Part shown: piece by piece, positions 2,723-19,207 of the stretch
Position numbering within the stretch: the first letter of the stretch is position 1
Layout: the number at the start of each line of letters is the position of its first letter
From: a virus
Virus record (IMG/VR): IMGVR_UViG_3300036886_000438
Location: 1 to 31,720 of that record
Strand: one strand, 5' to 3'
Length of the DNA: 31,720 bases
Position numbers and translations under genes: made by a program
The notes under the pieces: generated by a model
The model's database searches: none
Told to the model about the DNA's origin: nothing
Seen by the model: the letters and a program-made list of their open reading frames with translations, nothing else

Positions 2723-4315
2723 TCAAACTTTTTTTAAACTTTTTAAAAGCTTTGTTGCGTAGTGATGTCCGGCTGTAATTCCTGCAACTCCAATTGCTGA
2801 TGCTTTTAAAGGATTTGTTCCCGCTCCAGGATACAGACTGGTCCCTTTCTCATAAACTGACTTTTGATTATACGAATTAGATATATATGAAGCTGGAGCC
2901 AAAGCCAAACCACCTATAATACCGTAGCCTAATGAACCACCAAGATTAACACCAGCAGCTTCCTTTATTATATGTCCTGAAAAATGTGTATTAGGTAAAC
3001 CGTTTGCGTATTCAGAAGCCGACGGAAGAATATTATTTTTATCTTTTCTTTTATCAATCTCGTTATAAATTGCCCACAATGCGCTTCCGCCAAGCAATGT
3101 TTTCAACCATGGTTTATTAAAAATTGATATTAAATCACCTGGACCATACCCCATTGCTTTTAATTTTAAACCGGCATACAAAGCAGCAAGAGCAGTCAAC
3201 GCAGGATCTACTTTCATTTCTTTCTTTTCAGTTGTATTCCAAGGAAGAGCTTCTGCTGTTTTAATAATTATAGTTTGCATCCTAGGATTTAACATTGAAG
3301 GATAACAACTACGGTCATTCAGATATGGTGTCAATATTTTACCAAGAGTATCGCTGAAATCTGAATTAGATATATTAATAGGGGTAGGAGTTATATCTGA
3401 TTTTGTATCAAATATAATTCCACTGTTTTCAAGATTGTCAGCCAAGTCTTTTTCTCCAATACGAACTAAGACTATTCTCTGAAATTCAACTGGCTTTGGA
3501 TGAATACCAAGACCCAGCATCGTCGAGAAAATAGTTTCAAGAGGAAGTCCTGAAGACATTGAGTTAAGAAGATCTTTTGGAAGCTGCGGTTCTGCTGAAA
3601 TAGTATTTACAACTTTATCGTCAATTGATTTTTTAAGTGCGTCAAGTTCAGGAGTTTTAATTACAATACCATCTATATCATTATTATTTTTTGATTCAAA
3701 AGCCCCTGGAATGTTTTTATCCATCTCTCCTTTTTTAGCGGCCATTGCTACCTTGTCAACCATCTCGTCCGTCACCCCCTCAACTTCCGCAATATCTGCA
3801 GAATAATTTATGAAACCGTTATGGGCTGCTTTACCTAAGACATAAGAAATTTTGTCAGCGCCCAAAAATACCTTGGATAGGTCGAAAAATCTAGGGAAAT
3901 CATTGAAGCAAAATACTTGCGTTCCGGGAAGTATTTTTTTACCAGTTTCTTTTGACCATTGTTCAGCTAATTCTTTTGTAACTATAACCATCATGTAATT
4001 TTTTAAATGTTTACAATATTTTGCTCGTGTCGAAGCTTTGTTGTCACATATAGAACATCTATCGTACTTAACCTTGCAGTTATGAGAAACCAATCCTGCA
4101 GCTATATAAGATTCATCATCTTCAACTTCAAAATTATAAGTTTGAATATTTTCTACTTCAGTAAATTCTACTGATTTAACTGAATATGAAAATGTTCCAT
4201 CATTATTTATTCTTATTGCGGTATTTCCTTCTTTTACTCTTTCTGAAATATATTGAGATAAATTTGATAATTTTTTATTACAATATGGAATTAATGATTC
4301 TGAATCAATGTCCAT
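2723..4315 (-). CDS. Intein C-terminal part plus C-extein of capsid maturation protease
   Basis: 530 residues. Residues 1-79 end in a standard intein C-terminus: YNFEVEDDESYIAAGLVSHN (blocks F and G, His78-Asn79), followed by Cys80 as the +1 residue. Residues 80-530 are the C-extein. It opens with a probable zinc site (Cys80, Cys87, Cys90, Cys101, with His103 nearby), followed by a helical region, Gly/Ala-rich hydrophobic segments near 365-385 and 455-475, and a basic C-terminus. The ATG overlaps the end of the upstream reading frame by 11 bp in another frame and has only a weak AAGG site, so the intein is split between two frames. This is either a true split intein made by coupled translation, a frameshifted intein or a sequencing error. 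After splicing with the partner frame the mature protein would be about 612 residues. Confidence 0.75.
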   Translation of the reverse strand: MDIDSESLIPYCNKKLSNLSQYISERVKEGNTAIRINNDGTFSYSVKSVEFTEVENIQTYNFEVEDDESYIAAGLVSHNCKVKYDRCSICDNKASTRAKYCKHLKNYMMVIVTKELAEQWSKETGKKILPGTQVFCFNDFPRFFDLSKVFLGADKISYVLGKAAHNGFINYSADIAEVEGVTDEMVDKVAMAAKKGEMDKNIPGAFESKNNNDIDGIVIKTPELDALKKSIDDKVVNTISAEPQLPKDLLNSMSSGLPLETIFSTMLGLGIHPKPVEFQRIVLVRIGEKDLADNLENSGIIFDTKSDITPTPINISNSDFSDTLGKILTPYLNDRSCYPSMLNPRMQTIIIKTAEALPWNTTEKKEMKVDPALTALAALYAGLKLKAMGYGPGDLISIFNKPWLKTLLGGSALWAIYNEIDKRKDKNNILPSASEYANGLPNTHFSGHIIKEAAGVNLGGSLGYGIIGGLALAPASYISNSYNQKSVYEKGTSLYPGAGTNPLKASAIGVAGITAGHHYATKLLKSLKKV

Positions 4316-5165
4316 TACCAGCCTTATGAATAATTTTATATAAAGAAGACGGTATATTACATGATATTAATAAATCTCTTGCTTGAAGCAATGCATTAAT
4401 ATTACATGAAGATATATGTACACCTTTATTATCACAAAATCCATCACCACTAATCCAAGCACCAATAAAAGAAAGTTTGATATTTTTATCAGAAACAAAT
4501 ATCTCTGGTGGTATTTTTTTATCATGAGATAAATGTGACATATACTTATCCATAAAACAAGCTAATCTTGTCGAATGAATATCTACAGACAACCCTTTAT
4601 TACTATTATGATGAGGCCTTATAGAACAAGTAGTTTGAGGAAAAAGTTCATTTATTAACTTTGGAACCTCTCTAGGTAAATCGTCATCTATATGACACGA
4701 TAATTGTATACTACACGGTTTTCCATTATTATAAATAAAAGATCCTTCAGCAAAATAATACCCCATTAATTTTGCCAACTTTTCATCTGATATGGATGAT
4801 AATCCATATTCACTATATTTTACTGGAAGATATTGAATATGGTCACCAATTTCTGAGTGTTCTATATGGGTCCAATCAAATTGTTTTAATTCAAATTGAT
4901 CTGGATTAGTGTAAGATCTTTCTTTATTTAAACTTGTTTTTTTAAAACATTTCATCATCATTGGATGATCTGCGGTAAGTTCTAATGGAACAGGGAGTCC
5001 CCTTAATTCAATTTTATATATTTTACCGGTATATTTTCTTCTATGTAATTCTGTTACTTTTTTCCAATTTCCGTTATGAGTAAAAACCAAATCATCAACT
5101 TTAATATCTTTAATTGGTTTATATCCATTAAAAGTTAATATTGGATATTCAGGATTTGTAAAACA
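4079..5165 (-). mobile_element. Intein with LAGLIDADG endonuclease, split over two frames
   Basis: The first intein residue is Cys162 of the upstream frame (codon 5165-5163), in MG-CFTNPEYPILTFNG (block A). Block B follows as LELTADHPMM. The two dodecapeptide endonuclease motifs are LAKLMGYYFAEGS (about 291-303) and LSFIGAWISGDGF (about 392-404). The last intein residue is Asn79 of the downstream frame (codon 4081-4079), followed by Cys. The total of 1087 bp is one base more than a multiple of three, so no single frame covers it. A closed frame would be about 362 residues, a usual size for an intein with an endonuclease. Confidence 0.88.
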
Positions 5166-5648
5166 ACCCATACTTACACTTACAGGTTCACCTTTTTCAA
5201 TTGCATCTACAACATCTTTTGTTTTTTCTATATCAATAGCTATAACAAGTTCAACTCTGTGAAGTATAGGATTCCAATGTGAAAAAACAACTTCACCAAA
5301 AGATTTGTTTGGGTCTTTGTTAGCATGGTGCTTGTAAAATTTTGCGTAGTACATGAAAGTAAGGTACCCATAATCCTGATCTGTTCCCATATCTGTTCTT
5401 AAAGATTTATGAGAAATTCCAGATTCTGGAAAACCATCACCATTTCTATTAGGTCCCCATACCATGTCACCAACAGCGTTAATTACTGCATAATATCTAT
5501 TATCAAGTCGTTTTAAATTAAGAATAAATTTCATTATTTCAGGACTGTAATTTCCTGAAGCAAGTTTATTCATGCTGTATAAATTATTAATTGATGATAT
5601 GTGTTCACCATATTCATCTTGAGAATCGAATGTTACATATTTTATCAT
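4305..5648 (-). CDS. Capsid maturation protease N-extein plus intein N-part and endonuclease
   Basis: 447 residues. Residues 1-161 are the extein. It has WGPNRNGDGFPESG near 64-77, FYKHHANKDPNKSFGEVVFSHW near 104-125 and ends EPVSVSMG. A His-containing strand, a second strand (HRVELVIAIDI), a helix and then G-x-P-x-S-x-SMG resemble the S78-type prohead proteases (His then Ser). His124 and Ser159 are my candidates for the catalytic pair. The intein starts at Cys162, two residues after that serine, and carries the LAGLIDADG endonuclease to the end at residue 447. The remaining intein and the C-extein are in the overlapping frame 4315-2723. Expected role: cleaving scaffold and head proteins during prohead maturation. 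Confidence 0.7.
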   Translation of the reverse strand: MIKYVTFDSQDEYGEHISSINNLYSMNKLASGNYSPEIMKFILNLKRLDNRYYAVINAVGDMVWGPNRNGDGFPESGISHKSLRTDMGTDQDYGYLTFMYYAKFYKHHANKDPNKSFGEVVFSHWNPILHRVELVIAIDIEKTKDVVDAIEKGEPVSVSMGCFTNPEYPILTFNGYKPIKDIKVDDLVFTHNGNWKKVTELHRRKYTGKIYKIELRGLPVPLELTADHPMMMKCFKKTSLNKERSYTNPDQFELKQFDWTHIEHSEIGDHIQYLPVKYSEYGLSSISDEKLAKLMGYYFAEGSFIYNNGKPCSIQLSCHIDDDLPREVPKLINELFPQTTCSIRPHHNSNKGLSVDIHSTRLACFMDKYMSHLSHDKKIPPEIFVSDKNIKLSFIGAWISGDGFCDNKGVHISSCNINALLQARDLLISCNIPSSLYKIIHKAGNGH

Positions 5649-9000: not shown

Positions 9001-9200
9001 ACTACCACGCCCACAAGGGGCGTGGCTTCCTACTTCCTAGTATCCGTAACCGGACTACTCAGTAGGCTCTTCCGGCAATTCCTGCCGTGTGTTATTAATC
9101 CAAAGCTTTTAATATTCTGTGCAGTATTAATATCCCTATCATGTTTTTCTCCGCAATCGCAAGTCCATTCTCGTTCTTTTAATTGCAGATTTTCATTTAT
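9001..9200 (-). ncRNA. Predicted omega (guide) RNA at tnpB 3' end
   Basis: In characterised TnpB elements the guide scaffold overlaps the tnpB 3' end and stops at the right end of the element, and the flanking host sequence acts as guide. Here the terminal hairpin CCACGCCC-loop-GGGCGTGG lies between the tnpB stop and the element boundary. The guide would then read into the 3' end of the plus-strand gene at 8599. The 5' limit is approximate. Confidence 0.45.
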
Positions 9201-10163
9201 TAGACCACATTTACTGCACAGTTTTGATGAAGGATCAAATCTTCCTATCTGAATTAAGTTTTTTCCATACCATTCAGATTTATAAGTAAGCATAGTTACA
9301 AACTCAGACCATGATGCATTACCTATAGCTTTTGCAAGACAATGATTCTTCATCATTCCTTTTACATTTAAATCCTCAATACAAATAGTTTGGTTTTCGC
9401 TTATAAGCCTTGAGGATAATTTATGTAAAAAGTCTTTACGTTGATTGGTTATTTTTTCATACTGCTTTGATAATATTAATCGTGCTTTTAATCTGTTTTG
9501 TGAACCCTTCTTAGTTCTTGATAGCCTTTTATTTAAAACATCTATACGTTTTAAATCATAAGAAGGGGCTGTTGTTTTTGTTCCATTAGAATCTGTTATA
9601 TATGATTTAAGACCGAGATCAATACCTATTGTAGACACTTCTTTAACTTTCTTTTTTAAAGGAGTTTCTTTTGAATCATCTACTAATATTGATACATAAT
9701 ATTTAAATGTTGGAGTTCTTGATACAGAAACAGTTTTAATTTTACCATTAAATTTCCTATGTAAAATAATATTTACATCGCCTATCTTTGGAAGGTAAAT
9801 TTTATTTTTATCGACAGTAACGCCCTGAGGATACTGAAAAGAATTTTTTCCATGCTTATTTTTAAAATTAGGAAAACCTTTCTTTTCACGAAAAAATTTG
9901 GTAAATGCATTATCAAGATTTCTTAAAGCCATTTGTAATGGTTGAGAGTGAACTTCTTTAAGCCAATCATGTTCAAATTTTTCATGTATAAGCATACCAG
10001 TAATAAGAGTAAAGCAAGATGGAGATTTTTTAGTTTCTTGATATGACTTTATTTTTAATGCCAAAGCCTGATTATAGATGTATCTAACACATCCGAAAGT
10101 TTTAGCGATCAGAACAGATTGTTCCTTATTTGGATATATTCTATATTTATAGGCTTTAAGCAT
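9030..10163 (-). CDS. tnpB: TnpB RNA-guided nuclease
   Basis: 377 residues, normal for TnpB. The N-terminus MLKAYKYRIYPNKEQ is typical. RuvC-I is GIDLGLKSY with Asp182, RuvC-II is CIEDLNVKG with Glu263, the zinc finger has Cys316, Cys319, Cys335 and Cys337, and RuvC-III is DRDINTAQN with Asp344. All catalytic residues are present, so the nuclease should be active. TnpB cuts the empty donor site next to its target-adjacent motif, which favours retention of the element. There is no strong ribosome binding site. The element needs a transposase in trans to move. Confidence 0.93.
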   Translation of the reverse strand: MLKAYKYRIYPNKEQSVLIAKTFGCVRYIYNQALALKIKSYQETKKSPSCFTLITGMLIHEKFEHDWLKEVHSQPLQMALRNLDNAFTKFFREKKGFPNFKNKHGKNSFQYPQGVTVDKNKIYLPKIGDVNIILHRKFNGKIKTVSVSRTPTFKYYVSILVDDSKETPLKKKVKEVSTIGIDLGLKSYITDSNGTKTTAPSYDLKRIDVLNKRLSRTKKGSQNRLKARLILSKQYEKITNQRKDFLHKLSSRLISENQTICIEDLNVKGMMKNHCLAKAIGNASWSEFVTMLTYKSEWYGKNLIQIGRFDPSSKLCSKCGLINENLQLKEREWTCDCGEKHDRDINTAQNIKSFGLITHGRNCRKSLLSSPVTDTRK

Positions 10164-14121: not shown

Positions 14122-14154
14122 GTGGAAAAGACCGCAAAACAGGTTGCGACCTAA
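14122..14154 (+). other. Upstream in-frame 10-codon segment ending in TAA
   Basis: A strong GGAGG site (14112-14116) precedes GTG 14122. The frame encodes VEKTAKQVAT, meets TAA at 14152-14154 and continues in the same frame with TTG. It looks like the true N-terminus of the next gene, cut off by one stop codon, or a leader with stop-start reinitiation. Confidence 0.6.
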
Positions 14155-14478
14155 TTGCTTGCGAAAATAGCCCAAGAAAACGTTAATGTTGCTGAAAAAT
14201 ATGTAAAACCTCTTGAAAAGAAAGCCTCCGACAAGTTTGAAGAAATTCGTCAAAACGCATATAAAAACGAGATTGAAAAACTTGGTTTTAATATTCCTCC
14301 ATCGGTATCAGCCAATGTAGGCAAAGGTGCTACGTGGGTTAAGAATATTGCCAAGCAGGGTTTTCAGGTGGCTAAAGGTGTTGTTCAGAAAAATCCTGTT
14401 GCCGCTATTGCCGGTGGTGCTGGGCTTGCTGCAGGCGCAGGTGGTATGGCTGTTGCTAATTCGATGAACAAAAAGTAA
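14155..14478 (+). CDS. Small membrane-like protein, N-terminus separated by a stop codon
   Basis: 107 residues if started at TTG 14155, which has no ribosome binding site of its own. The real start is probably GTG 14122. The sequence begins LLAKIAQENV, has LEKKASDK and IEKLGFN, then a C-terminal Ala/Gly-rich hydrophobic stretch (AAIAGGAGLAAGAGGMAVA). It resembles the minus-strand virion proteins in carrying EKxA motifs plus a Gly-rich segment. A GC-rich hairpin follows the stop. It could be expressed by reinitiation at TAATTG or be a recent nonsense mutant. Confidence 0.55.
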   Translation: MLAKIAQENVNVAEKYVKPLEKKASDKFEEIRQNAYKNEIEKLGFNIPPSVSANVGKGATWVKNIAKQGFQVAKGVVQKNPVAAIAGGAGLAAGAGGMAVANSMNKK

Positions 14479-14541: not shown

Positions 14542-14577
14542 ATGTTATTTTTTACAATAATCTGGTATAACTATAAT
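14542..14577 (+). promoter_or_regulatory. Phage bipartite promoter, copy 1 (structured RNA 1)
   Basis: ATGTTAT, 18 bases, ATAACTATA, with TGGT just before the second box. It is one of five copies with identical spacing. It lies about 30 bp before the structured RNA that ends at a terminator at 14897. Confidence 0.7.
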
Positions 14578-14579
14578 AG

Positions 14580-14897
14580 AGAGATATAAGTATTAACGTC
14601 AAATAAAAATGATGAATGTCGTGCTCCAAAAAAAGGGTTGATTATTAGTTATAACGGTTCTGCTAACCGTAACTAATAACCGTGCGGCTAATGAAAAGAA
14701 ATGGGACTGCAAACCCATCTATGATCATTAGTAGACAATCTAAAGTCTGAAAAATTAGATATGCTTGCTCCGGCTGAAACAAATGGAGGTAGTCTTGCAG
14801 ACTACGCGGAGATTTAACTTAAAAAGAAGCCTGACCAGCTAAAACACGGTATTCATCATTAAATTTTAAAGCACACAGCTTATCGTGTGCTTTTTTT
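14580..14897 (+). ncRNA. Structured RNA 1, candidate template RNA of the RT cassette
   Basis: A 500-bp gap between genes holds an independent transcription unit: promoter at 14542, terminator at 14868-14897 and no convincing reading frame. A 16-bp stem with two G-U pairs (14608-14623 with 14845-14860) closes the RNA. Inside are: a bulged 14-bp hairpin at 14643-14678; a two-tier hairpin CTAATGA/TCATTAG with inner ATGGG/CCCAT (14688-14731); and CTCCG/CGGAG enclosing GTAGTC/GACTAC (14768-14811). Complementary ends enclosing hairpins upstream of a retron-like reverse transcriptase is the plan of a retron msr-msd RNA. No known RNA family was recognised, and the priming guanosine cannot be fixed from sequence alone. 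Confidence 0.65.
14868..14897 (+). terminator. Rho-independent terminator of structured RNA 1
   Basis: AAAGCACAC and GTGTGCTTT form a 9-bp stem with an 8-base loop, followed by a T-run. Confidence 0.85.
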
Positions 14898-14908
14898 ATT
14901 TATCATCA

Positions 14909-14944
14909 ATGTTATTTTTCTAAAATTAGTGTAATAACTATATT
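14909..14944 (+). promoter_or_regulatory. Phage bipartite promoter, copy 2 (RT operon)
   Basis: ATGTTAT, 18 bases, ATAACTATA, then TTGTAAG. It lies 40 bp upstream of the TTG start of the DHH gene and drives the DHH-RT-RNase H operon separately from RNA 1. Confidence 0.72.
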
Positions 14945-14983
14945 GTAAGAATATTAATTTATTTTTTTAAACTTGGAGGATTA

Positions 14984-16081
14984 TTGCCTACAAATCATAT
15001 TTTTTTTCATAATGATGTCGATGGTATTATGTCGGCGGCATTTTATATGTTTTATAATGAAAAACAAAGGTGCCGTTTATACCCAGTTGATTCTTTGACG
15101 AGAGGTGAAAAATTTAATACATTTTTTAATAATATTATAAAATCAAAAAACGACAAAGACATTATAGTCGATTATCAATATCATAAAAATGCCGATCTTT
15201 GGATTGATCACCATTTCAATCATGACTTCGGGGATTGTATTGTTCAGAATGAAAAAGTTTATTATAACCCAAAATCACCATCGGCTACAAGTCTTGTAAA
15301 ATCGTTTTTTGATCCAGATTGTAATATTTTCGACACTCTTCTTAAAGATGTAGACATTATTGATTCTTGTGCTTATAAAAGTGTAGATCAGATATTTAAA
15401 GACGCCAGGGCCATTATGCAATTAAGGGCATATCTTGAACAAAATTATCTTGACGATATGATCTACTGCAGAATAGTCGAAATGATCGATACCTGTGATA
15501 TGGACATTGATGACGCAATGTACAGATTAAGGATTGGATCTTATTATATTAGAGAAGTTTTTAAAAGAGCCATTAAAATAAAAAACTCAATGATAATAAG
15601 TAAAAAAATATCAATTACAAATCAAAAAGTTATTAAGCAATTTCCAACTTATTCTGAATATCTAATAAATCCAGAAATAAAATATACTATTAGATTAACA
15701 AATATCGGTAATGGAAATATTAAATTTTCTGTCGGTTACAATCAATGGCATGAAGAGAAAAATGAATTTAATCTTGGTAAACTGGTTCAGCTTAATTATA
15801 TCCCGGTTAGTGGCGGACATTTTGGTATAGGGGCCGGGGTTGTAAAAGAAACTGATCTTGATAAATTTATTGATTATATTTCAAAAATATTAAATGAAGA
15901 GGATGATAATATGGAGAAGTACGCTGTCGATAAAAATGATATGATAGAAAAAGAGGCTGAAAAACTTGTTAAAACCGGTGAAGTTAAAAACATGTCTGAA
16001 GCAAGATTTGCAGTATTAAATAGTAAACCTATTAGTGATGATTTGGAGGATTCCAGTGAACGATCTGGTAAAGACCAATAG
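14984..16081 (+). CDS. DHH-family phosphoesterase/exonuclease
   Basis: 365 residues. It starts at TTG 14984, placed by GGAGG eight bases upstream. Motif I is HNDVDGI (His9, Asp11, Asp13), with Asp63 in IIVDYQY, the DHH signature at 75-77 (WIDHHF), the acidic motif DVDIIDS near 122-128 and a DHHA1-like SGGHFGIGAG at 276-285. These are the metal-binding and substrate motifs of RecJ, NrnA and oligoribonuclease-type enzymes, which trim single-stranded DNA or short RNA from the 5' end. The tail from Met310 (MEKYAVDKN, then SEARFAVLNSKP) has its own GAGGA site and ATG at 15911, so a separate 56-residue product is possible. The 3' end overlaps the reverse transcriptase start. Confidence 0.88.
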   Translation: MPTNHIFFHNDVDGIMSAAFYMFYNEKQRCRLYPVDSLTRGEKFNTFFNNIIKSKNDKDIIVDYQYHKNADLWIDHHFNHDFGDCIVQNEKVYYNPKSPSATSLVKSFFDPDCNIFDTLLKDVDIIDSCAYKSVDQIFKDARAIMQLRAYLEQNYLDDMIYCRIVEMIDTCDMDIDDAMYRLRIGSYYIREVFKRAIKIKNSMIISKKISITNQKVIKQFPTYSEYLINPEIKYTIRLTNIGNGNIKFSVGYNQWHEEKNEFNLGKLVQLNYIPVSGGHFGIGAGVVKETDLDKFIDYISKILNEEDDNMEKYAVDKNDMIEKEAEKLVKTGEVKNMSEARFAVLNSKPISDDLEDSSERSGKDQ

Positions 16082-17135
16082 TAATTTTGATTTTAAATAT
16101 ATGTTTGGAAAAGACGTAAGGGATGTCGATGATATTCTTGCCAACAAGGAACAGCACATAAGAAGGTTTACTATTCCAAAAAGGGATGGTACCACAAGAA
16201 CCATTATCGCTCCAGATTCAAATTTAAAATATATACAAAAAATGATTTATTATAAATTTCTTAAAAAATATTCATACAGCTCAGCGGCAAATGGTTTTAT
16301 ACCAAAGCGTGGCATAGTTACAAACGCTGTCCCACATGTAGGGGCAAATTCTGTTGGTAAGATAGACATAGCAAAATTTTTCGATTCCATATCAACGAAC
16401 CATTTAAAAAATTGTTTATTTGGAAACGAGAACGTCTGCAGATTTTGCAATAAATATACAAGAATGCTAGATGGTAAATGCCACCCATCTTTGTATAAAA
16501 ATAAATTACAAAAATTCGATTTCAGGTGTGAGGAGTTAAAGGCGGTGTTTATTCCTGAGTATTGTGAAAAGACTGGATATCAGTCTTTGTTTAAAAGGGT
16601 TATAGACGCCTGCACTTATAATGGCTATACGGCGCAGGGGTTTCCTACATCTCCAATGCTGGCTAATGTGGTTATGAGAGGTTTTGACAAGGCAATCTTA
16701 AAACATTGTGCTGAGAATAATATCACCTATACACGCTATGCCGACGACCTTGCATTCAGCAGTAATACATTAAACGCAAATGAATTGATGGAAAAGACCA
16801 AAAAGAAAGCCTATGCTCTTTTGTGGGCTTTTAACTTTAATCCAAAGCGCGAAAAAACGAGATATAAAAATAAAGCTACCAGAATGAAGATTTGCGGAAT
16901 TGTAGTTAATAAAAAACCAAGTATACAAAAAAGTGTAGTAAAACAATTCAGGGCCAAGGTACATCATGCCCTGGTTAAATATCCTGAAAGAACAACAAAA
17001 TCAAGGTTAAGGGCACTTAAGGGATGGGCTTCGTTTCTTATGTCTGTGGATAAATCAAAGGGTGAAAAATTTATGAATCAGCTTGTAGCCTTTGAAAATA
17101 ATAAGTTTCCAAAACTAGAAGCGGTACAGTCTTGA
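16056..17135 (+). CDS. Retron-like reverse transcriptase
   Basis: 359 residues from GTG 16056, selected by GGAGG at 16045-16049, which lies inside the DHH gene. RT motifs in order: PKRDGTTRTI (about 41-50), NGFIPKRGIVTNAVPHVG (79-96), motif A IDIAKFFDSI with Asp104, motif B QGFPTSPMLAN (194-204), the catalytic RYADDLAFS (Tyr228-Asp231), motif D region and KICGIVVNKKPSI (278-290). NAxxH, QGxPTSP and the late G-x-VVN-KK are features of retron-type enzymes. SP in motif B argues against a diversity-generating retroelement. Between motifs A and B lies an insertion with cysteines at 128, 131, 142, 158 and 170. No maturase or endonuclease domain is present. It should copy a structured RNA into DNA. 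Confidence 0.92.
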   Translation: MNDLVKTNSNFDFKYMFGKDVRDVDDILANKEQHIRRFTIPKRDGTTRTIIAPDSNLKYIQKMIYYKFLKKYSYSSAANGFIPKRGIVTNAVPHVGANSVGKIDIAKFFDSISTNHLKNCLFGNENVCRFCNKYTRMLDGKCHPSLYKNKLQKFDFRCEELKAVFIPEYCEKTGYQSLFKRVIDACTYNGYTAQGFPTSPMLANVVMRGFDKAILKHCAENNITYTRYADDLAFSSNTLNANELMEKTKKKAYALLWAFNFNPKREKTRYKNKATRMKICGIVVNKKPSIQKSVVKQFRAKVHHALVKYPERTTKSRLRALKGWASFLMSVDKSKGEKFMNQLVAFENNKFPKLEAVQS

Positions 17136-17668
17136 ATTTCACTGTATACACCGACGGTGGTTGTTCAGGAAACAAAAGAGACTGTGGTTGCTATGGTGCC
17201 TGGGCCTATATAATATTAGATGCAGGAAATAATATTATAACAAAAAACAACCATATTGTATGTAATACAACTAATAACAGGGTTGAAATGATGGCTGTTA
17301 TTCAAGGGCTAAGGGCACTATATACGTACAGTGAACTATGTTATGGTGGATCTAGATTTAATGACTGTACGGTTATAAGTGATTCAAAGTATGTTGTTAA
17401 TAATTTTAATGAGTATGTTCTTGAATGGCAAAAGAATGGATGGAAAAAGTCTGGTGGTGATAGTGTCATTAACATTGACCTTTGGAAAGAGATTTGCTTG
17501 TTGTCCCCTGAGTTCAAATCTTTCCAGTTTAAGTGGGTCAAAGGACATTCAACCAACAAGTTTAATCAGGAGGCGGATGCCCTTGTAAGAGACTTGTTAT
17601 ATCAACCGGATGGGAGTTCAAAGTGGAAGCAGAAAAAGACAAACGATCAGATGGGTTCAACAGAGTAA
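17132..17668 (+). CDS. rnhA: Ribonuclease HI
   Basis: 178 residues starting at TTG 17132, which overlaps the TGA of the reverse transcriptase (TTGA), so translation is probably coupled. The active site is complete: Asp8 in YTDGGCSGN, Glu52 in NNRVEMMAV, Asp84 in ISDSKYVV, His139 in WVKGHS and Asp149 in NQEADALV. It degrades the RNA strand of RNA-DNA hybrids. Retrons normally borrow the host enzyme, so a dedicated copy directly behind the reverse transcriptase points to a shared task such as removing template RNA. The C-terminal 20 residues are polar and overlap the next small gene. Confidence 0.93.
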   Translation: MNFTVYTDGGCSGNKRDCGCYGAWAYIILDAGNNIITKNNHIVCNTTNNRVEMMAVIQGLRALYTYSELCYGGSRFNDCTVISDSKYVVNNFNEYVLEWQKNGWKKSGGDSVINIDLWKEICLLSPEFKSFQFKWVKGHSTNKFNQEADALVRDLLYQPDGSSKWKQKKTNDQMGSTE

Positions 17669-17775
17669 TTGATGCTACAGGCACATTTTTAAAGGAAATA
17701 TTTCCTCATGCCTGTAAATTTGTAGAAATGATTAAAAATAAGTTTTCGGTTCCACAAAAAGACAATAAGAAATAA
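17623..17775 (+). CDS. Small 50-residue protein at the end of the RT operon
   Basis: GTG 17623 has GGGAG seven bases upstream and lies in a different frame inside the RNase H 3' end. It encodes 50 residues: a charged N-terminus (EAEKDKRSDGF), a helix (NRVIDATGTFLKEIFPHACKF) and a basic tail. It continues the overlapping style of the operon and ends just before structured RNA 2. No family is recognised; an accessory or regulatory peptide is possible. Confidence 0.55.
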   Translation: MEAEKDKRSDGFNRVIDATGTFLKEIFPHACKFVEMIKNKFSVPQKDNKK

Positions 17776-17787
17776 TTTAAATATCAA

Positions 17788-18030
17788 CATACAGAAGGAG
17801 AGAAGTTTTTCTCAGCCAGTGTGTTTCGCGCTGGATTATAATGTAGTATCTTGATCTCTCTGTACAACCTTCTTTGTCGAGAGATCAAGCCTTCTACCTG
17901 TTCCCGTGTTCTCTACATGAACACGGGACGGACAGGTAGGTTTAAGCACCTACCTTGTCCCCGACCCCAATCGGTACTGTCTGTGTGAATGATATAATAA
18001 GATTGCCGATTCCGACCCGGCAGTCTTTTT
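17788..18030 (+). ncRNA. Structured RNA 2 with alternative helices
   Basis: It fills the 334-bp gap after the RT operon. CATACAGA (17788-17795) pairs with TCTGTGTG (17980-17987) to close the fold. Inside are the hairpins GAGAA/TTCTC, CCAGTGTG/CGCGCTGG and TTGATCTCTC/GAGAGATCAA, and a long hairpin CTACCTGT-T-CCCGTGTT / AACACGGG...ACAGGTAG. Segment B (17930-17940) can pair with A (17894-17904) or with C (17949-17960), each as about 10-11 bp with one bulge, so two folds exclude each other. It ends in a strong terminator. It could be an operon-3' regulatory RNA, or an alternative template RNA for the reverse transcriptase. Confidence 0.6.
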
Positions 18031-18033
18031 TTA
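17999..18033 (+). terminator. Rho-independent terminator of RT operon / RNA 2
   Basis: AAGATTGCCG and CGGCAGTCTT form the stem (one G-U pair), followed by TTTTTTT. Confidence 0.88.
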
Positions 18034-18606: not shown

Positions 18607-18662
18607 CAGAAGAATCGTGTTGTTAATTTAAAAGTTTTTTGAATATTTTAATAGTAAAAAAT

Positions 18663-18833
18663 AAGAAATTACACTTGGCGGAAATGGTACTTAGACGCTG
18701 CTCTTATGAGGTGTGACCCTTAACTGGGAATATCGAGTCGAAAGGCAATCAACATAAGCTAAGACTTTTAGTAAAAGCTGAATCCATGCGGCGATCCGTG
18801 AAATTCGGATCAATAGCGGGAGTGTGATTTCTT
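18663..18833 (+). ncRNA. Structured RNA 3
   Basis: AAGAAATTACACT (18663-18675) pairs with AGTGTGATTTCTT (18821-18833) over 13 bp with one G-U pair, closing a fold of about 170 nt. Inside are GATCCG/CGGATC with a 7-base loop, CTTTT/AAAAG, CTC/GAG and a GACCC-GGG region. A terminator follows at once. It has no plausible reading frame. It is not a canonical tRNA, 6S RNA or group I intron as far as I can tell. It may be the 3' part of the transcript from promoter copy 3, or have its own weak promoter at about 18619. Confidence 0.6.
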
Positions 18834-18837
18834 TAAT

Positions 18838-18864
18838 AAAAGACTGGTTTATCAGTCTTTTTTT
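18838..18864. terminator. Bidirectional terminator between convergent units
   Basis: AAAAGACTG and CAGTCTTTT form the stem, with T-runs on both strands. It ends structured RNA 3 and the minus-strand gene stopping at 18863. Confidence 0.85.
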
Positions 18865-19207
18865 ACCTATTACTTAAAGCGGTCATGTTGGCGGATTTTC
18901 CATCGTAGGTTGGTTTTGGTACAGCCACATCTTTAACATCAGTGACTGGCTTGGATTGTTCTTTTTGAATTGCCTTGTTAACTATCGCAGGAGAATTAAA
19001 TGGTTGCGGCGCAGGGCTTCGTAATACACTAGACTTAACTTTGGGTGTAATACGATCCCTGTCTGCCGCCATTTTTATTTGATACCTATTTCCATTTCTA
19101 TCTTTGTGGGGAAGTTTAATAACATATCCAACAACTTTAGGGTCTAAAGCCATGCTTGCGAAAGCTTTTAATACTTCGTCGGAACTTCTTGCAAGTTTAT
19201 TAAACAT
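18863..19207 (-). CDS. Unassigned small virion-block protein
   Basis: 114 residues beginning MFNKLARSSDEVLKAFASMA, which carries the shared motif at the extreme N-terminus. A short strand region (VVGYVIKLPHKDRNGNRYQIKMA) is followed by a Pro/Lys-rich, probably disordered C-terminus. It starts directly after the stop of the 744-residue gene, so the two are co-transcribed. Function unknown. Confidence 0.5.
   Translation of the reverse strand: MFNKLARSSDEVLKAFASMALDPKVVGYVIKLPHKDRNGNRYQIKMAADRDRITPKVKSSVLRSPAPQPFNSPAIVNKAIQKEQSKPVTDVKDVAVPKPTYDGKSANMTALSNR

Follow-up and report, generated by a model that had tools for sequence, protein, structure and literature searches.

The DNA stretch analysed here (the window, 31,720 nucleotides, nt) comprises positions 1–31,720 of the IMG/VR virus record IMGVR_UViG_3300036886_000438. 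It contains a plus-strand operon that encodes a DHH-family phosphoesterase, a retron-type reverse transcriptase (RT), a ribonuclease HI (RNase HI) and a small protein, followed by a conserved structured RNA (RNA 2). The adjacent phage structural genes lie on the minus strand. The features of the cassette, in window positions, are:

14911–18032, plus strand: operon with promoter-like box, DHH, RT, RNase HI, 50-residue open reading frame (ORF), RNA 2 and intrinsic terminator, in this order
14911–14941, plus strand: promoter-like box GTTATTTTTCTAAAATTAGTGTAATAACTAT ahead of the operon, a candidate by motif
14984–16081, plus strand: DHH/DHHA1 phosphoesterase, 365 residues, TTG start behind GGAGG
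15911–16081, plus strand: small acidic protein (MEKYAVD...) read from an in-frame ATG and covering the C-terminal end of the DHH ORF, a probable separate product
16056–17135, plus strand: retron-type RT, 359 residues, GTG start behind GGAGG
17132–17668, plus strand: RNase HI, 178 residues, Pfam RNase_H with E = 2e-29, residues D-E-D-H-D intact
17623–17775, plus strand: small ORF, 50 residues, GTG start, overlapping the RNase H gene
17786–17989, plus strand: RNA 2, a retron-like non-coding RNA, minimum free energy of the fold −89.8 kcal/mol, z = −8.2
18000–18032, plus strand: intrinsic terminator, AGATTGCCG...CGGCAGTCT followed by a T run, read from the sequence as closing the operon and the RNA 2 transcript

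Relatives were collected by searching viral contigs with the RT, DHH and terminase sequences (records of up to 208 kb; L numbers such as L001 and L063 designate these contigs). A first-pass annotation of the window had read the DHH, RT and RNase HI genes as an overlapping trio. The three genes are real, every motif named for them was found in the sequence, and the overlaps are present (16056–16081 between the DHH and RT genes, 17132–17135 between the RT and RNase H genes). The trio is not the full gene set, however: the fourth ORF at 17623–17775, which overlaps the RNase H gene, had been overlooked. The RT most likely starts at the GTG at 16056 and not at 16035.

A motif of the form GTTATTTT-N13-15-TGTAATAAC (with variants) is located 60–145 nt 5′ of the DHH gene in 14 of 18 phages, and a terminator-like stem occurs at the matching place in most relatives. 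The promoter-like box GTTATTTTTnnnnAATnnTGGTATAACTAT has five copies in the window (14544, 14911, 18047, 23239 and 30800), exclusively on the plus strand. These boxes precede plus-strand units, opposite to the structural genes.

Reverse transcriptase and partner enzymes

The RT carries the motifs NAxxH, QGFPTSP, YADD and ICGIVVN, the last with ICG at the VTG position, and matches Pfam RVT_1 with E = 6e-19. Its best PADLOC profile is RT_XIII (219 bits), followed by RT_III-A (199 bits). Among the NCBIfam models it scored 201 bits against retron St85 and 62 bits against group II. A sequence search of the PDB gave Ec86 as the nearest solved RT, and the first 18 fold matches in Foldseek were all retron RTs, ranking above the RT of a diversity-generating retroelement (DGR). 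Because the Foldseek superpositions of both the RT and the DHH protein had modest TM-scores of about 0.5 and large root-mean-square deviations, we used the ranking and not the geometry. Profiles, PDB sequence search, fold search and the NAxxH motif agree with the earlier description of the RT as retron-like. As far as profiles and fold tell, it also stands outside the group II and DGR families; an assignment as a group II intron RT was rejected on the NCBIfam scores.

The location in a phage and membership of the same RT superfamily would also suit an RT derived from a DGR or a group II intron. Like the BPP-1 enzyme Brt of a known DGR, it is a phage RT with a neighbouring RNA to act on. Such an origin is nevertheless highly improbable. 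The RT scores much higher with retron profiles than with group II, its fold matches place retron RTs ahead of the DGR RT, and the cassette RTs and Brt are far apart in the tree. RNA 2 occurs as a single copy in a 174-kb record, so there is no template/variable repeat pair of RNA 2. On the fold ranking and this missing second copy we rejected the DGR reading.

A motif search found NAxxH, YADD and a four-cysteine insertion (CxxC-x9/10-C-x..-C) in 13 of 13 cassette RTs. By inspection, NAxxH and YADD are also present in the relatives that were found later, with NAWQH and NAQNH in L159 and L160. Fourteen cassette RTs form one clade with a support of 100/100 in a tree that has long branches and an open backbone and was used solely for the unity of this clade. 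The four-cysteine insertion may be new, and an earlier published description of the phage element may exist.

The DHH protein contains the motifs HNDVDG, IDHH and SGGH (of the HxDxDG, DHH and GGH type). Its Pfam DHH match is weak (E = 0.0027, below the Pfam cut-off); the predicted fold is clear (AlphaFold model with a predicted local distance difference test score of 86). The best PDB match is PggH (entry 7d62; Foldseek E = 1.4e-14, profile E = 3.6e-12), followed by pAp phosphatase, DhhP, GdpP, nanoRNase and RecJ. The phage protein has the same fold and catalytic motifs as PggH, pAp phosphatase, nanoRNase A, GdpP and DhhP. It differs from them in being only 12–17% identical, in an extra C-terminal segment (MEKYAVD) and in its location in an RT operon. 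The catalytic motifs are kept in all members checked except L061, where the protein is still retained. Motifs and fold thus support the DHH enzyme of the first-pass annotation, whereas the loss in L061 implies that DHH catalysis is not indispensable.

The fold is also the starting point for a counter-defence role, in which the DHH enzyme would destroy the signals of the cyclic-oligonucleotide-based antiphage signalling system (CBASS) or of type III CRISPR (clustered regularly interspaced short palindromic repeats), namely cyclic or linear oligoadenylates and S-adenosylmethionine-AMP (SAM-AMP), and the RNA-DNA would act as a decoy for host sensors or retron effectors. The nearest folds, those of PggH, pAp phosphatase, DhhP and GdpP, are consistent with this. 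The DHH-family protein NrN, which is tied to SAM-AMP signalling, shares the PggH/GdpP neighbourhood with the phage enzyme (PMC10600005), and a survey of jumbo phages suggests that phage DHH enzymes may destroy signals in this way (PMC7824862). However, counter-defence genes tend to be patchy in their distribution, whereas the cassette is found at a fixed place in all members that were checked. Furthermore, the L061 protein is kept with its active site lost, and the DHH gene is translationally coupled to the RT gene. We regard counter-defence as possible but doubtful.

The C-terminal MEKYAVD segment begins with an ATG that is conserved in 11 of 13 aligned DHH ORFs (motif search) and is preceded by a ribosome site of the GAGGA/GGAG type in most members. 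In L063 the segment is a free-standing ORF. Given this conservation and the free-standing relative, the sequence suggests that the segment is probably translated as a small protein of its own. A short EKxA- or DELEKLG-like motif was seen in this segment and near the start of or inside the products of many minus-strand ORFs of the window. It could be a capsid-targeting or protease-related signal.

The D-E-D-H-D residues of the RNase HI are intact in 15 of the 16 other aligned cassette copies; the copy of L154 has lost D, D, H and D. L063 has no RNase H gene in its cassette, and the sole copy found in its record is located elsewhere, unlinked. Five of the six long phage records yielded no RNase HI apart from the cassette copy. 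The earlier view of the RNase H as strictly dedicated to the cassette does not hold for L063 and L154. RNase HI and the DHH protein might instead serve the phage in normal replication or nucleotide salvage, with nothing but the shared operon connecting them to the RT; the sole copies in five of six records and the separately encoded enzyme of L063 are what a general need for RNase H predicts. On the other hand, the genes overlap and keep the same order across very divergent members, and the dead homologue of L154 has been kept in place. This explanation appears to us a minority option. RT catalysis, by contrast, is retained in all members, and RNA 2 retains its core structure (described below) in every phage where it was recognised. 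The losses of RNase H and DHH activity suggest that the RT and the RNA form the constant core of the cassette and that the two nucleases are frequent helpers.

A small ORF is present at the position of the 50-residue ORF in nearly all members. A phmmer search with the latter matched L001, L007, L011, L014 and L026, and by inspection an ORF is located at this position in L005, L010, L012, L057, L063, L129, L153, L154, L159 and L160.

The conserved downstream RNA

RNA 2 contains the following elements, all on the plus strand:

17788–17795 with 17980–17987, plus strand: closing helix P1, formed by the complementary ends
17797, plus strand: candidate priming G, just 3′ of the 5′ arm of P1
17800–17813, plus strand: hairpin A, from the single-sequence fold and the core of 18 phages
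17816–17834, plus strand: hairpin B with a UUU triloop; stem of 8–9 bp and 3-nt loop among the phages
17959–17965, plus strand: sequence motif CCCCGAC

The RNA was recognised in 18 phages with a shared core of P1, hairpin A and hairpin B. An alignment of the whole RNA with MAFFT misaligns the variable hairpins, and pair counts were therefore limited to this core. Across the 18 sequences 98.9% of the core cells are paired compared to 61% in shuffles, a figure that is inflated by our choice of the arms from single-sequence folds. Double-sided changes and an unpicked triloop scan are free of this bias. Changes on both sides were observed at 18 of 20 pairs of the core, including covariation of every one of the 7 counted P1 pairs. 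The covariation score is 1.05, compared with 0.27 for shuffled sequences and at most 0.18 when the arms were slid. In 17 of 18 phages the unpicked scan detected a stem of 7 bp or more that closes a 3-nt loop at the place of hairpin B; about 10% of shuffled RNAs have such a stem somewhere in their first 120 nt. The loop sequence is UUU or a near variant (UUC, AUU, GUU, UUA, UAA, CUU or AAU). In 16 of 18 phages the CCCCGAC motif precedes the 3′ end of the RNA by 31–39 nt, near the putative start of the complementary DNA (cDNA). By inspection, all 18 have a G that follows the P1 arm on its 3′ side after a few nt at most.

The msr part of retron RNAs has complementary ends of about 8–30 nt and hairpins of 7–10 bp. 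The stem bound by RT-Eco1 has 8 bp and a UUU loop, and that bound by RT-Eco3 has 9 bp and a loop of 3 nt (PMC6868368). The predicted P1 and hairpin B of RNA 2 agree closely with these features.

RNA 2 might alternatively be a structured 3′ untranslated region that binds the RT or protects the mRNA, with the DNA made by the RT being untemplated or otherwise templated, as for defence-associated RTs (DRTs). Its position at the 3′ end of the operon, closed by a terminator, is in line with this, and so are the very short RNA of L063 and a template part that is very variable in length and sequence. However, P1 combined with an 8-bp hairpin and a 3-nt loop is the signature of a retron msr, the spacing between CCCCGAC and the 3′ arm is fixed in 16 of 18 phages, and the RT is far nearer to retron RTs than to DRTs. 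We consider an untranslated region of this type unlikely.

Searches of the viral contigs with short pieces of RNA 2 gave false matches, which were discarded. The 19-mer of hairpin B matched once, inside a coding gene (L004), and the 17-mer of the CCCCGAC hairpin twice, in one coding sequence shared by L029 and L030.

The RNA assigned to the system by the first-pass annotation was a different one, about 300 nt long and located upstream of the DHH gene:

14604–14899, plus strand: RNA 1, a structured RNA with its own promoter-like box (14544) and terminator (14868–14899), probably not part of the cassette

The fold of RNA 1 is more stable than that of its shuffles (z = −4.6), and the second promoter-like box (14911) is located between its terminator and the DHH gene. 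It had no blastn or nhmmer match in the relatives collected at that stage and no Rfam family. As a separate transcription unit without a match in these comparisons, RNA 1 was rejected as the retron RNA. The expected structured RNA with complementary ends does exist, in the form of the downstream RNA 2, and it is RNA 2 that is conserved among the phages. The earlier reading is right about a retron-like, self-contained phage system and wrong about which RNA belongs to it.

A fixed place in one phage lineage

The cassette was found in about 19 distinct phages. The order DHH, RT, RNase H is conserved in phages other than that of the window, as the first-pass annotation had anticipated, and the recurrence of the trio together with RNA 2 in about 18 other phages shows that the cassette is not a product of chance. 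The cassette is always located between the terminase and 346-residue genes on one side and, in contigs that reach far enough, the gene for a 744-residue protein on the other. It is present in all 16 contigs that encode a terminase of at least 54% identity and extend 3 kb or more on the side in question; this count applies to close relatives, since the best 80 of the 250 terminase matches were retained. Contigs with a close terminase and no cassette end before its place. Near terminases of 30–36% identity the cassette was never found. The same locus was observed in four further, more divergent phages, and in one 181-kb record the cassette runs across the contig ends, which fits a circular or permuted genome. 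L007, L009 and L010 have a long insertion after RNA 2, the first ORF of which reads like a radical SAM protein (CDNKCKHC); in L010 the insertion pushes the 744-residue gene about 3 kb away.

A scan of bacterial genomes with an alignment of 3 RT sequences gave no match, and a scan with an alignment of 13 sequences yielded only RTs of about 30% identity without the cassette partners. None of 138 distant viral and bacterial RT loci had a cassette-type DHH, RNase H or terminase gene nearby. A search of phage records gave no DHH match and RTs of at most about 28% identity. The cassette in all 16 close contigs and the merely distant bacterial RTs indicate a fixed trait of one phage lineage. A mobile defence island, which had been considered earlier, is disfavoured by the single fixed place in every lineage member that could be checked, and the reading as a defence module is probably wrong.

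A role in superinfection exclusion or abortive defence would make the cassette a tripartite retron, with the DHH protein or a small protein as a toxin restrained by the RT and its multicopy single-stranded DNA. Known retrons are indeed tripartite anti-phage systems (PMC8989520, PMC12548924), and the phage RT is closest to those of such retrons. However, a PADLOC scan of the DHH protein, the RNase H and two neighbouring small proteins matched neither a partner gene of type XIII nor any effector family. Moreover, the locus is a core phage trait without the variation typical of defence islands, the DHH protein is catalytically dead in one member, and none of the matches in bacterial genomes is close. 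Superinfection exclusion is therefore quite unlikely in our view.

The Staphylococcus aureus jumbo phages MarsHill, Madawaska and DC4 likewise belong to a large-phage lineage with a conserved RT, which is of unknown function and not part of a DGR (PMC10638138). These RTs are about 27% identical to that of the window, have the VTG motif and fall outside the cassette clade. An RT of this S. aureus jumbo type, with NAxxH and VTG and an identity of 27%, was also seen in L034 (Staphylococcus phage SA 1306 Kay).

Proposed mechanism and neighbouring features

On balance, we think it probable that the cassette is a domesticated retron-type element which has become a fixed part of a lineage of large phages from the environment and produces RNA-primed cDNA for the phage's own cycle. 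The analysis establishes the genes, their conservation, their fixed place and the covarying structure of RNA 2; from what is known of retrons we infer the following course. A single transcript from the box at 14911 to the terminator at 18032 would encode the DHH enzyme, the acidic protein, the RT, the RNase HI and the small protein, with RNA 2 as its 3′ portion and template. Hairpin B (8 bp, 3-nt loop) would be the site at which the RT binds RNA 2. P1 would set G17797, just 3′ of its 5′ arm, as the 2′-OH primer, facing the template start just inside the 3′ arm. Synthesis of the cDNA would run through CCCCGAC and then into the variable hairpins, and the RNase HI would strip the copied RNA. The DHH enzyme may clear or trim short RNA products or act on signalling nucleotides; short RNA is proposed because its closest solved relatives cleave dinucleotides and very short oligonucleotides. 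A co-encoded RNase H would be sensible, since cDNA length and defence in retrons depend on host RNase H1 (PMC8989520).

The resulting RNA-DNA particle would serve the infection by the phage, either in support of replication or packaging or by neutralising host defence. This purpose is the least certain part of the proposal. The fixed locus favours a role in the phage's own cycle, be it basic or in counter-defence, over an optional defence island. Tentatively, the RNA-DNA molecule may be a standing component of the life cycle (replication, packaging or genome shielding), with template RNA, RT and RNase H all of viral origin. If so, retroelement chemistry would here belong to the core functions of a phage and not to bacterial immunity.

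A number of observations weigh against the proposed retron-type element. That an RNA-primed DNA is made at all is itself inferred, and we count this among them. RNA 2 was not recognised in L061, though the cassette is present there. In 18 of 18 phages RNA 2 is located 3′ of the RT, the RNase H and the small ORF, whereas validated retrons carry their non-coding RNA 5′ of the RT. The AGC priming context is not conserved: AG follows P1 in most members, AGC itself is found in L016 and L063 only, and L159 and L160 have a bare G. In place of the single long hairpin usual for retrons, the template part of most members consists of two to four very variable hairpins. The RNA of L063, with 88 nt, keeps P1, A and B and one short hairpin, which leaves a template of about 30–40 nt. 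The proposed processing is not universal either, since two members have an absent or dead RNase H and a third has a dead DHH protein. Finally, the VTG of region Y is absent and replaced by ICG, VCG or TCG, or by CN in L159 and L160, the two most divergent members. Two of 16 validated retron RTs also depart from VTG (PMC6868368), and its absence thus lowers the case for retron membership but does not exclude it.

Compared with known retrons (Ec86/Eco1 and PADLOC type XIII), the phage element is alike in RT family, NAxxH region X and predicted fold. It also shares the complementary RNA ends, the msr hairpin of 8–9 bp with a 3-nt loop and the arrangement as a short cassette with a partner enzyme. 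It differs in the RNA 3′ of the RT, the change of VTG to xCG or CN, the four-cysteine insertion, an RNase HI of its own, the DHH partner, the composition of the template part and the fixed core locus in a phage lineage. Retrons are known as bacterial anti-phage systems that borrow the host RNase H; here the parts are found on the side of the phage, in a lineage whose members have a retron-type RT, a template RNA and, in most cases, an RNase H at one fixed place beside the packaging genes. If an RNA-linked cDNA is made, a virus would here clearly be making use of retron chemistry. The cysteine insertion, the 3′ template and the co-encoded RNase H are of practical interest for the production of single-stranded DNA in cells.

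A further structured RNA (RNA 3, 18640–18870, z = −3.3) with a terminator at its end is located downstream of the operon. It was rejected as a part of the cassette, with no match in the relatives checked and none in Rfam. In L129, a 181-kb relative, the region past RNA 2 (reverse complement, approximately 3000–3250) contains the same promoter box, followed by a short unit that has internal repeats and a terminator and lacks an obvious gene. Phages of this lineage may carry several small RNAs.

Upstream of RNA 1, a GTG behind a ribosome site is followed by an in-frame TAA (14123–14158) and then by a 107-residue ORF (14155–14478), the gene of which may be disrupted or started by TTG. Between the terminase region and the structural genes, the minus strand encodes what by eye is a TnpB-like protein of the IS200/IS605 type (9030–10163). 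Two further minus-strand ORFs (2723–5648) have intein-like parts, with an intein splicing domain in 2723–4315 and Hint/LAGLIDADG in 4305–5648; they possibly represent one intein-interrupted gene.

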